From assembly GCF_000014565.1 (NCBI RefSeq), contig NC_008268.1, positions 3,100,001 through 3,164,000 of the forward strand: DNA of 64,000 nt. Reading direction: 5' to 3'. Shown piece after piece: positions 33,864 through 46,247 of this stretch. Position numbers and translations under genes: made by a program. Numbering within the stretch: position 1 is the stretch's first letter; each line of letters begins with the position of its first letter. The notes beneath the pieces were generated by a model. It saw only the letters and a list, made by a program, of their open reading frames with translations, was not told the origin of the DNA and searched no databases. Source of the stretch: Rhodococcus jostii RHA1 (lineage in GTDB: Bacteria > Actinomycetota > Actinomycetes > Mycobacteriales > Mycobacteriaceae).

Positions 33864-33890
33864 TCTCGGCGGAGCATCCGCGCGATCACA
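33859..33890. terminator. Weak hairpin at convergent gene ends
   Basis: TGTGATC (33859-33865) and GATCACA (33884-33890) form a 7-bp stem with an 18-nt loop, spanning the stops of the WS/DGAT gene and the convergent ATP-grasp gene. Confidence 0.35.
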
Positions 33891-35142
33891 CCGTCACCGT
33901 GTTCGCGGGGGCCACGCGCACCTGAAATTCGAGGCGTGACATGGCCTCCCGGGCGGCGTCGAGCGCCTGCTCGGCGGTGTCCCCGACCGCGCGTGCGTAT
34001 GCGACACGCGAATCGGACGACTCCAGGACGCTGACCGCCCCGCCCGGGCGGACCAGGAGTTGCGCGTCGGTCACGCCGTCGACGTTCCGGGCGTCGTCGA
34101 TGCCGCTGACGTCGGTGAGAACACCCGCGACGGGTGCGGCGGCGAACCAGATCGCGGAACAGTGCGCGGGCCGCTCCACCGCGAGGACGGCCCGGATCCC
34201 GGGAAGGACCTTCTCCCCGATGGTCTGCCGCACGACGCAGTCGGCGAGGTCCACGCCGGTGGCGTCGACGGCGAGGCCCGGTATCTCGTCGCCGCCCATC
34301 CGCACGTGGGTTTCGATCACCCGGGGACCGGTTGGGGTGAGCACGATCTCGGTGTGGGTTGCACCGAACTCCACGCCGACTGCGTCGAGCACACTCGTCA
34401 CGTACGTATGGATCCGTTCTTCCTGTGTCGTGGAGAGGGCTGCCGGTGCCACGTGCCCGAGTTCGACGAAGGTCGCCGGGTCGGAGAACTTGCGGGTGAC
34501 GGCGACGATCTGGTGTTCGCCGCACTCCGAGAAGGCCTCCACACTGAATTGCGGGCCCTCGTGGAACTGCTCCACGAGCACCCCGCTGGTGGTCAGGCCG
34601 TCGAAGTCGCCCCCTGCGCGCGCGTACGCCGCAGCCAGTGCGCCCTCCTCCCGAACCACGGCCACTCCGGCACTGCCCGCGCCGCGCACCGGTTTGACGA
34701 CGCACGGGAACCCGTGCTCGAACGCGAAGGTGCGCAACGCCTCCACGTCGGCGACGACAGCGGAGGCGGTGGCGTCGACGCCGGATTCGCGGAGCGCGGC
34801 GCGCATGGCGTTCTTGTCGTGGACCGACGTCACGGTGCGGCGTGAGTGGGTGGACAGGCCGAGGGCCTCCCCGATCGCGGCGCAGCGATCCTGGTCGCGT
34901 TCACCGAACGTGGCGATCCGGGTGAACGGATGCTCCGCATGTGCGGCCGAGGCCAGGGCGATCCATTCCTCGTCCGGCGCATCGTGCCGCACGGCGATCA
35001 CCCGCGAGTGCTCGGTCAGACGGCGAAGCTTGGCGACGAATTCCAGTCGGCAGATCACCGAGGTCTGTGTGCCGGGGAGGGCGTCACGGACCCTGCCCGG
35101 GAGGTCGCGGCCGCTGCCGACGACGAGGACGTGTTCAGTCAT
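33886..35142 (-). CDS. ATP-grasp ligase (L-amino-acid ligase-like)
   Basis: 418 residues, last gene of the eleven-gene operon. Domains: N-terminal pre-ATP-grasp (HVLVVGSGRDLPGRVRDALP), central ATP-grasp (HGFPCVVKPVRGAGSAGVAV, VLVEQFHEGPQFSVEAF) and Mg-binding VIETHVRMGGDEIPGL, plus a C-terminal domain typical of dipeptide ligases of the BacD/YwfE group. It should activate a carboxylate as acyl-phosphate and join it to an amine. ATGA overlap with the MFS gene. Paired with a second ATP-grasp at 39380, it suggests peptide-bond formation without an NRPS. Confidence 0.88.
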   Translation of the reverse strand: MTEHVLVVGSGRDLPGRVRDALPGTQTSVICRLEFVAKLRRLTEHSRVIAVRHDAPDEEWIALASAAHAEHPFTRIATFGERDQDRCAAIGEALGLSTHSRRTVTSVHDKNAMRAALRESGVDATASAVVADVEALRTFAFEHGFPCVVKPVRGAGSAGVAVVREEGALAAAYARAGGDFDGLTTSGVLVEQFHEGPQFSVEAFSECGEHQIVAVTRKFSDPATFVELGHVAPAALSTTQEERIHTYVTSVLDAVGVEFGATHTEIVLTPTGPRVIETHVRMGGDEIPGLAVDATGVDLADCVVRQTIGEKVLPGIRAVLAVERPAHCSAIWFAAAPVAGVLTDVSGIDDARNVDGVTDAQLLVRPGGAVSVLESSDSRVAYARAVGDTAEQALDAAREAMSRLEFQVRVAPANTVTV

Positions 35143-44485: not shown

Positions 44486-45492
44486 TTGCCCGTCACCGCC
44501 AGGCCCCAGTCGAAGTCGACATCGCCCAGGACATTCATGTCCGACATCAGCGAATACAGCCCGCTGTAGTCGCGCACGAGCCGCGCACCGGACTTCTCGG
44601 CCCGCACGTCGGCGAGCATCTTCTCCCATCCGGTGACCTTCTCGATCCGGAAGATCGCCTCCCACGTCGAGTAGTCCGTGGCGACGAACGCGTCCAGTCC
44701 GGCGACCAGCATGTCCAGGAAGAATCGGCGTTTGACGGGGTCCAGCACGTCGTACACCAGCTTCGCCATCTCGTCGGAAATGGATGCGTGGCAGTACTCG
44801 TCCCGGTTGTGCAGTTTTGCGGTGGTGGAATTGACCACCTGGATGTCGTGATCGTCGGCGAGCAGATCGAGATACGCGTTGATCGAGATCTCGGACACCG
44901 TGGCGAAGGCCAGCGTGGTCAGGCTGCGCTGCCAGCGTTCGGCGGCATGGGCCCGCAGCCGACGGTGCGTCCGTGAGGTGTGCGATTCGGGTAACGCGCT
45001 GTCGGGGAACGGGTTCCCCCGTTTACGTCTGGTCAGCGCACTCGCATTGATGTGCATCAGGGTGTGATACTGCTCGTCGACCATGGCCTGTGCGAGGGCG
45101 ATATCCATGTCCTGGCCGCCGAGACCCGGGAACTCCCCGTCCATGACGAGCGCGAACGCCGGGTTGGCGACGCGTTGCTCGGCGATCACCGTGTGCCGGT
45201 TGTACGCGATCCAGGCCCAGCTCAGCAGCCGCGACCGCATCGCGTCGGGCATCGCCTGCCACGTCGGATGGTCGCGGAACGGCACGATTCCCTCGGGGTA
45301 ATCGGCCCGGCCGGCGTCGAACAACTCATCGAGGTCGGGCTCGTCGCGCTTCACCGTCGACCGTCGGTGCCAATTGCCGGCGAGGCGGCTGATAACGGCG
45401 TTCTCGGCTTCGTCGGCGGGGTCGAACGACGGCAGTCCGGGGAGGTGCACCAGCCCGTCGGCGTCGGAGCACTGCAGGTCGTCGATGATCAT
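44482..45492 (-). CDS. AurF-type di-iron N-oxygenase
   Basis: 336 residues. All seven iron ligands known from AurF have counterparts with matching spacing: E105, E140, H143 (VDEQYH), E201 (SEISINAY), H228, E232 and H235 (HNRDEYCH). AurF-type enzymes oxidise an amine to hydroxylamine, nitroso or nitro using O2. In this operon the amine could be that of the beta-amino acid or a peptide product. An N-terminal [14 protein letters not shown] segment is also typical. 4-bp overlap with the TauD-like and KamA-like genes. Confidence 0.9.
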
Positions 45493-46247
45493 GCGCGAGT
45501 CCGGTCGCCGGCCCAGAAACGGGTGAGGTGACGGGCGCGGTCGGCGTACTCCGAGCGCGCGTGCAGCATGCGCTGGTTGTCCCAGATGAGCAGCGCGTTC
45601 TCGGGGATCAACACGCGGGTGCGCAGCTCGTGGAACAGGTCGCTGACGCGATGCGCCAACCTGCGACCGGCCCGGCCGAGCGGCAGCCGGACGTCGTCGA
45701 CGTCAGCGTCGTGATGCGGGTCGTAGTCGGACGCGGTGAGCAGGTTGTAGCTGAAGCGCAGGGCCGTGCGGCCGGTGTCGTCCGCGTCCAGCATCGTGGT
45801 GCGCACACCCCCGTCCGGGCCCGGGAAGGTCAGTTCGGCGTCCGTCATGAGGGCAACCTCGGCCGGTTCCAGGGCGTCGACGAGCCGCCGGATGTCGAGC
45901 AGATCGGTGTGGCCACCGCCGCAGCGCGCCTGCCGGTGACAGAACAGCGCCAGGTACGCCGGGCTCGGATCCCAGCCCGGCGCTTCGGTGTGCGCCAGAA
46001 TCGTGTTCGCGCTCTGCGAGTACGCCCGATGATCGTTGCCGGGACGGTACGTCACCTCGTGGGTGAGGAGACCGTTGTATTGCGGAACCAGATCACCAAG
46101 GGAGCCAACCACTTCCGCCGCGGCGATGCGGTCGGGTACGTCGTGGACGACGACGTACCCGTCCTCCTCCAGCCGGGACCGGTCGACACGGCCTTCCACC
46201 GTTCTCCCACCTACAGGCGCAGAGACGACATGACAATTCGGCGACAT
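45489..46247 (-). CDS. TauD/CAS-like Fe(II)/2-oxoglutarate dioxygenase
   Basis: 252 residues, first gene of the eleven-gene operon. The iron triad is H86-T-E88 (LAHTEAPGW) and distal H229 ([10 protein letters not shown]), with R239 or R243 (ARHLTRFW) for 2-oxoglutarate. The HxE form and length resemble amino-acid hydroxylases of the clavaminate synthase-like group. It probably hydroxylates or desaturates an amino acid precursor. ATG 46247 has a strong GGAGGAAT box, consistent with a leading cistron. It overlaps the AurF-like gene by 4 bp. Confidence 0.88.

Follow-up and report, generated by a model that had tools for sequence, protein, structure and literature searches.

An eleven-gene operon of Rhodococcus jostii RHA1 as a candidate pathway for a small peptide with an N-oxidised, glutamate-type residue

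Within a 64,000-nucleotide stretch of the Rhodococcus jostii RHA1 genome (contig NC_008268.1, positions 3,100,001 to 3,164,000; hereafter the window), the minus strand at positions 33886..46247 carries eleven genes, here named g01 to g11 in the order of transcription, which together form the operon considered in this study. The genome around the window comprises 9.7 Mb in 4 contigs. An earlier interpretation made from the letters alone (the sequence-only reading) had described eleven minus-strand genes of which every adjacent pair overlaps, and all of them are present with the same ends. Overlaps of 4 bp (ATGA or GTGA) occur at 9 of the 10 junctions (45489, 44482, 43163, 41676, 40603, 39380, 37201, 36455 and 35139), and the remaining junction, between g08 and g07 at 38112, is a 10-bp overlap. 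Tight overlapping operons are frequent in bacteria; for this window, nine in ten is unusual, because only 4 of 29 same-strand neighbour pairs in the rest of it share a 4-bp overlap (counted with our own simple gene caller, which also set the start positions in relatives). A consensus scan inside the operon returned one promoter-like site, against 0.5 expected from shuffled sequence, and no terminator, against 4.1.

The first three genes encode a TauD/clavaminate-synthase-like Fe(II)/2-oxoglutarate oxygenase (g01, 45489..46247, 252 aa; PF02668, 60.2 bits), an AurF/CmlI-family diiron N-oxygenase (g02, 44482..45492, 336 aa; PF11583, 195.1 bits; CmlI structure 5hyg, E 4.7e-132), and a KamA-like radical S-adenosylmethionine (SAM)/pyridoxal phosphate (PLP) aminomutase, "KamX" (g03, 43163..44485, 440 aa), whose 108.8 bits against TIGR00238 lie below the cut-off of 199.2. 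The product of g04 (41676..43166, 496 aa) is a fusion of an N-terminal racemase/epimerase domain of the enolase superfamily (residues 1-338, 42153..43166; NCBIfam and PDB matches) with a C-terminal GNAT acetyltransferase domain (residues 348-492, 41691..42125; PDB match to glyphosate N-acetyltransferase). It is followed by an Ldh2-type 2-hydroxyacid dehydrogenase (g05, 40603..41679, 358 aa; PF02615, 324.8 bits), an ATP-grasp ligase (g06, 39380..40606, 408 aa; PRK02186-type model, 72.7 bits, under the cut-off), a FemAB-like GNAT-fold transferase (g07, 38112..39383, 423 aa; PF04339, 59.2 bits; PF13480, 35.5 bits) and a branched-chain-type (IlvE) aminotransferase (g08, 37201..38121, 306 aa). The operon ends with a protein of no recognised family (g09, 36455..37204, 249 aa), an exporter of the major facilitator superfamily (MFS; g10, 35139..36458, 439 aa; PF07690, 82.9 bits) and an ATP-grasp L-amino acid ligase with a LAL_C2 domain (g11, 33886..35142, 418 aa; PF18603, 67.8 bits; PF13535, 68.7 bits). 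The start of g10 is uncertain, being either GTG 36458 or GTG 36446, the latter giving 435 aa and no overlap. None of the eleven is a nonribosomal peptide synthetase (NRPS) gene. Matches to Pfam and NCBIfam profiles bear out the family names given by the sequence-only reading, from whose list of roles g07 and g09 were missing.

Relatives of g03 were sought by a pattern scan of the GTDB species collection; of the 399 that were confirmed, the best 80 were kept as loci (L numbers below), with gene content assessed by tblastn at E 1e-5. The operon recurs in the same order, complete or minus one to two genes, in 13 of these 80 loci, which gives 14 clusters including the window: five are in Rhodococcus (L004-L008), three in Mycobacteriaceae (L009-L011), two in Kutzneria (L012-L013) and three in Streptomyces (L017, L020 and L040). 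The nearest named cluster is that of Rhodococcus opacus ATCC 51881 (98% at g03). As the order is kept in 13 other loci, where 87 of 123 junctions are again 4-bp overlaps (starts from the simple caller), the arrangement appears to be more than chance. Scattering of the genes among relatives, the outcome named in advance as speaking against a single pathway, was looked for, and linkage was found conserved instead. The operon is absent from the remaining 67 loci, 57 of which have only g03 in common with the window, and the KamA-like gene is also found by itself in many other settings. An additional Rhodococcus cluster was found in genome G009 (L115), where g11 is cut by the end of the stretch. 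Distribution is patchy, since close g02 orthologues (at least 88% identity) were detected in only 7 of 28 genus genomes and, at E 1e-120, in 7 of 301 family genomes, all within the genus; 20 of the other 21 genus genomes hold a relative at 44-51%. That the eleven genes form one conserved pathway is held with much higher confidence than the chemistry proposed below.

Gene content varies between lineages. The Kutzneria clusters are without g09, and their g04, only 345-353 aa long, has no GNAT half; a stand-alone GNAT gene follows g11 there (Pfam check in L012). The cluster of Streptomyces xanthochromogenes (L040) lacks g09 and g10. All three Streptomyces clusters carry after g11 a gene of one family, which in L040 encodes a dehydrogenase of the flavin mononucleotide (FMN)-dependent hydroxyacid type according to Pfam. 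In the three Mycobacteriaceae, g08 and g09 form one reading frame of 543-561 aa (L009 16622-18307, L010 16449-18080 and L011 16444-18075).

The N-oxygenase g02 is 62.7% identical to CmlI of chloramphenicol biosynthesis, and the seven iron ligands of AurF (E101, E136, H139, E196, H223, E227 and H230), also present in CmlI, are kept in every aligned row. The enzymes differ at the position of AurF Arg302, which presumably contacts the substrate carboxylate: Arg is found in 14/14 clusters, as in AurF, whose substrate p-aminobenzoate bears a carboxylate, whereas Gln occupies this position in both CmlI rows, and Gln, His or Thr in seven other relatives. g02 is predicted to be an AurF/CmlI-type N-oxygenase with amine-to-nitro activity. 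The operon also lacks the pabB, prephenate dehydrogenase-like and AMP-binding genes that adjoin the CmlI-like gene on a Rhodococcus sp. H-CA8f plasmid. This plasmid locus (L117, 15004-28858) contains apparent chloramphenicol-type pathway genes, with the CmlI-like enzyme near a chloramphenicol efflux gene. A chloramphenicol-type aryl nitro product was rejected for the operon, in which, unlike at L117, no aromatic precursor genes are present. In g01, the HXE...H...R motif (H86, E88, H229 and R243) is invariant in 15/15 rows (the 14 clusters plus S. tricolor L015), and the top PDB profile match is clavaminate synthase 1 (E 1.6e-6). In the hormaomycin and belactosin pathways, an N-oxygenase and a 2-oxoglutarate enzyme likewise act together on an amino acid, but the substrate there is lysine and the diiron enzymes are heme-oxygenase-like.

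For g03, the sequence-only reading had proposed a KamA role, the conversion of an alpha to a beta amino acid. An aminomutase remains the predicted role, but the substrate appears to be an acidic amino acid rather than lysine. Residues were compared with lysine 2,3-aminomutase (PDB 2a5h) and a lysine-type locus (L118) in 80 distinct family members, from which L039 and L061, not placed in the family by the gene caller, were absent and L001 was removed because it repeats the window gene. The radical SAM motif CxxxCxxC and Arg134 are present in 80/80 and the PLP Lys in 79/80 (Glu in L070). Asp293 and Asp330 of the lysine enzyme are taken here to bind the side-chain amine of lysine. At the Asp293 position, Arg is found in 80/80; at the Asp330 position, Ser occurs in 37, Val in 38, Ile in 5 and Asp in none. 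Ruzicka and Frey (2007) reportedly assigned binding of the lysine amine to the two aspartates and described Lys and Asn in the glutamate enzymes. Lys and Asn occupy the corresponding positions in 10/10 TIGR04368 glutamate 2,3-aminomutase loci fetched from a search in which 87 of 249 genomes had a match over the cut-off. Since its members have a basic residue where the lysine enzyme has Asp293, and a non-acidic one at position 330, the g03 family resembles glutamate 2,3-aminomutases, which favours an acidic substrate, glutamate being the most likely one.

Public annotation suggests otherwise, as 10 of 15 listed plasmid records name g03-family members lysine 2,3-aminomutase, and the weak profile matches of g01 include an L-lysine 3-hydroxylase (6f2a, E 0.005). 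Both points would suit a lysine pathway, in which beta-lysine made by g03 undergoes hydroxylation, N-oxidation and coupling to other amino acids, in the manner of negamycin-type building blocks. Such a pathway is judged improbable in view of the loss of both aspartates in 80/80 members and of a g03 score of 107.7 bits against TIGR03820, for which the cut-off is 525.4; a beta-lysine (negamycin-like) route as first choice was dropped after the residue test. Because both lysine-binding aspartates are replaced throughout, the name "lysine 2,3-aminomutase" is probably wrong for this family.

The contexts of other family members agree with a glutamate-type g03, on account of stand-alone copies in Nocardiopsis and a copy in an incednine-like locus. 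In ten Nocardiopsis loci, g03-family genes have opposite-strand genes on both flanks, and PMC1224877 reports beta-glutamate in Nocardiopsis halophila. At an incednine-like polyketide synthase (PKS) locus on a plasmid of Streptomyces sp. NBC_00334 (L163, 1-17215), a family member annotated as lysine 2,3-aminomutase, with the same Arg, sits between type I PKS genes, accompanied by genes for an alpha/beta hydrolase, a PLP enzyme of class I/II and an AMP ligase, as would be expected for incednine-type starter units. IdnL4, the radical SAM enzyme of incednine, is described in PMC11284099 as a glutamate 2,3-aminomutase on the basis of gene disruption and feeding, with no in vitro activity seen. The g03 family shares with IdnL4 and the clostridial glutamate 2,3-aminomutase the predicted chemistry, and with the glutamate enzymes compared by sequence the loss of the lysine-binding aspartates; it differs from the latter in having Arg and Ser/Val/Ile instead of Lys and Asn. 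Relatives of the PLP enzyme at L163 (37-52% identity) also stand beside the aminomutase in L030, L049 and L160. Two further arrangements were observed: in Nocardia (L029, L033, L035 and L042), the gene lies near FemAB-like and ATP-grasp genes and one more common family, a possible further type of NRPS-free peptide cluster, and in Streptomyces filipinensis and S. alfalfae (L019 and L024), it lies near shared 428-aa, TauD-like, F21-family (FMN hydroxyacid-type) and FemAB-like genes.

The stand-alone copies also lend something to a reading without any secreted product, in which the operon would serve catabolism or osmolyte handling (beta-glutamate turnover): many aminomutase-family members lack shared neighbours, and the Nocardiopsis copies fit osmolyte synthesis. 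For the operon itself this appears quite improbable, given an N-oxygenase and two ATP-grasp ligases in 14/14 clusters and an MFS exporter in 13/14. Even less probable, in our estimate, is a diazo or azoxy product whose N-N or diazo function is made by the diiron enzyme; the precedent is Dob3, reported in PMC13061610 to be 47% identical to CmlI and to oxidise hydrazones. No lysine N-monooxygenase, methionyl-tRNA synthetase (MetRS)-like or cupin gene occurs among the eleven; such genes are found at a separate locus of the same genome (L114, C2:618000-637900), and a diazo or hydrazine product was accordingly set aside. L114 (4054-19899) contains a second g03-family aminomutase, with lysine N6-monooxygenase, MetRS-like protein, cupin, saccharopine dehydrogenase, adenylation domain, ATP-grasp ligase and MFS genes as neighbours, and looks like a hydrazine-forming peptide pathway.

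The remaining enzymes extend the acidic theme and supply ligases. The sequence-only reading had correctly placed g04 in an epimerase-GNAT family, and its halves can now be described more closely. The best NCBIfam model for the racemase half is the DgcA N-acetyl-D-Glu racemase (165.5 bits, below the cut-off of 400), and its PDB matches are led by 3iji (named muconate cycloisomerase), followed by dipeptide and L-Ala-D/L-Glu epimerases (3rit, 3jva and 1jpm), so that it resembles N-acyl-Glu racemases and dipeptide epimerases; the catalytic K, K, D, E, D and K are invariant in 14/14 clusters. The GNAT half matches glyphosate N-acetyltransferase (2bsw/2jdc/2jdd, E 2.5e-28). For g05, the best NCBIfam model is L-sulfolactate dehydrogenase (198 bits, below the cut-off of 500), an enzyme that acts on a 2-hydroxyacid bearing a second negative group. 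The aminotransferase g08 exceeds the cut-offs of NF005146 (407.4 bits; cut-off 279) and TIGR01122 (395.9 bits; cut-off 245.55). An ATP-grasp domain and an L-amino acid ligase (LAL) C-terminal domain are both found in g11, whose PDB matches are L-amino acid ligases (30vh, 3vot and BacD); g06 matches weakly (L-amino acid ligase 4wd3, E 2.3e-7; Pfam ATP-grasp_4 just under the cut-off) and lacks LAL_C2. No close PDB sequence was found for g07; for g09, neither Pfam nor NCBIfam gave a match at E 0.01, and the best E in the PDB profile search was 0.59. Acidic substrates resembling glutamate are thus indicated by g03 and by each half of g04, and less strongly by g02 and g05.

On this basis, the operon is proposed, with about an even chance of being right, to direct the NRPS-free biosynthesis of a small peptide, most likely similar to nitropeptin, that contains a nitro (N-oxidised) residue of glutamate type and is exported. 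Linkage, gene set, active-site residues and the tree conflicts described below are observed, whereas every substrate, the reaction order and the product are inferred. In the proposed sequence, g03 would move the amino group of L-glutamate to C3 to give beta-glutamate; g01 would hydroxylate C2 and g02 would oxidise the C3 amine to a nitro group, in either order, leading to 2-hydroxy-3-nitroglutarate or its precursors. Oxidation of the 2-hydroxyl to a 2-oxo group by g05 (or by the FMN enzyme in Streptomyces) and transamination by g08 could then yield 3-nitroglutamate, after which the GNAT domain of g04 would N-acylate and its racemase domain set the alpha-centre. g11, with g06 and perhaps g07, would join this residue to an aliphatic amino acid, and g10 would export the peptide. 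Part of the earlier outline survives in this scheme (NRPS independence, linked genes, an N-oxygenase with its iron ligands, two ATP-grasp ligases and an exporter), with the details of the chemistry changed. Among known systems, the cluster is best placed with NRPS-independent ATP-grasp peptide pathways, as a variant whose glutamate-derived, N-oxidised residue carries a confidence of about one half. Dipeptide antibiotics of the bacilysin/dapdiamide type likewise involve a BacD-related L-amino acid ligase, an MFS exporter and no NRPS gene; they differ from the operon, which has three ligase-type genes and warhead genes that we take to be unlike those for anticapsin or dapdiamides.

Nitropeptin was reportedly described by Ohba et al. 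in 1987 and is probably an isoleucyl-nitroglutamate. A nitro dipeptide of this sort fits an amine-to-nitro oxygenase combined with an L-amino acid ligase. In PMC5138215, nitropeptin is listed among the products of S. xanthochromogenes as a nitro dipeptide, and cluster L040, one of the 14, belongs to strain JCM 4612 of this species. Five AurF-family places and six LAL_C2 places were located in its genome (150 of 162 LAL candidates scored); the two kinds come within 20 kb of each other only at C4:608-618 kb, and one place matches the glutamate-aminomutase model (E 0.001). No nitropeptin gene cluster or matching pathway was found among the papers listed in the literature searched. The earlier verdict of "probable new" is uncertain, since the operon may make nitropeptin itself, a known compound, or something closely related to it.

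Several observations weigh against this proposal. The second substrate-binding position of g03 is Ser/Val/Ile, not Asn as in the glutamate enzymes, and g03 reaches only 80.3 bits against TIGR04368 (cut-off 650). L040, the cluster in the species reported to produce nitropeptin, is one without the MFS gene and g09, and there are four other AurF-family places in the same genome; the sequenced strain, JCM 4612, may differ from the nitropeptin producer strain or strains. A nitro group at C4 instead of C3 would rule out the aminomutase route for nitropeptin. Three ligase-type enzymes exceed the need of a dipeptide, and g07 and g09 have no sure step. Finally, oxidation by AurF relatives may end at the hydroxylamine or nitroso stage, or may take glutamine as substrate: according to PMC6783550, hydroxylamine analogues are formed by TsnB7 (from glutamine) and by BezJ, and AzoC stops at nitroso. 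The same glutamate pathway may thus lead to a hydroxylamine, oxime, nitroso or hydroxamate, with the AurF-like enzyme halting at a lower oxidation state or acting on an amide. This alternative is considered unlikely but deserving of some weight; against it stands the 62.7% identity of g02 to the nitro-forming CmlI, together with the g02 tree, where CmlI shares a group (100/100) with the enzymes of Rhodococcus, Mycobacteriaceae and Kutzneria. The Streptomyces cluster enzymes fall outside that group. The best tree has CmlI inside the group, and a position beside it is not rejected (p 0.17).

The nitro-glutamate proposal can be extended by the evolutionary record of the clusters, where g01-g03 and g04-g11 seem, from sequence comparisons, to have different histories. 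Mean identities to the window for g01, g02 and g03 are 62, 76 and 73% in Kutzneria and 49, 67 and 60% in Streptomyces, whereas for the g04-g11 genes present in both, the order is reversed, Streptomyces being closer than Kutzneria (e.g., g08, 47% in Kutzneria vs 76% in Streptomyces). Trees were computed for 4 of the 11 genes (g02, g03, g07 and g11; model LG+G4), and groupings were evaluated by the approximately unbiased (AU) test, with p-AU values that are optimistic because the groups were picked after the identities were known, the model is simple and the program warned of long branches. A grouping of Rhodococcus and Mycobacteriaceae with Streptomyces was rejected for g03 (p-AU 3.9e-5) and g02 (0.0014), was not rejected for g11 (0.41), and appears in the best g07 tree (90/89). 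Conversely, a grouping with Kutzneria was rejected for g11 (0.0017) and g07 (4.9e-6) and not for g02 (0.17). A single clade of the 14 clusters was rejected for g03 (1.9e-43) and g02 (0.0038), and the Streptomyces clusters have a g03 aminomutase from another lineage. A tentative possibility is that g01-g03 constitute a three-enzyme module that converts glutamate into 2-hydroxy-3-nitroglutarate, presumably identical to "nitroisocitrate", or into 3-nitroglutamate, that g04-g11 wrap this product as a peptide for uptake by competitors, and that the modules have been exchanged between actinobacterial lineages. Nitroisocitrate has reportedly been crystallised with aconitase (Lauble 1992, cited in PMC3556520 and PMC10040528).

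The surroundings of the operon hint at its relocation. About 160 bp 5' of g01 (46248..46410, minus strand, the presumed promoter) align between the window and five Rhodococcus loci, and alignment is lost further upstream; the limits of this block were judged by eye, and row L005 has a gap within it. As this block aligns while the sequence upstream does not, and codons of the neighbouring gene run into it, the operon looks to have relocated as a unit with its presumed promoter. That neighbour is an acyl-coenzyme A (CoA) thioesterase gene (46381-47292), whose last codons enter the conserved block and which was perhaps truncated where the operon arrived. The adjacent CaiB-like CoA-transferase gene (47289-48389) matches its Pfam profile over positions 1-188 of 366, then becomes arginine-rich, and reads as frameshifted or as a sequencing error. 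Downstream, a convergent wax ester synthase/diacylglycerol acyltransferase (WS/DGAT) gene (32460-33863) was left out of the operon. Among the 13 other loci it was found only in R. opacus L004, a weak test of absence because little sequence past g11 is visible (447-748 bases in 10 of 13, 2061-2584 in three). A WS/DGAT relative (73%) lies near the second aminomutase locus (L114, 4054-5475), also close to an ATP-grasp gene.

Taken as a gene set, the operon offers a testable candidate for nitropeptin, an antibiotic for which no gene cluster was found in the literature searched. The g02 enzymes represent close relatives of CmlI that retain a different key residue, and a radical SAM family often publicly named lysine 2,3-aminomutase likely requires correction to a glutamate type. 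The clusters further suggest that a warhead module and an assembly module have been exchanged while one gene order was kept, and the three-enzyme reading of the former, if true, would constitute a natural route to an analogue of a tricarboxylic acid (TCA)-cycle intermediate.

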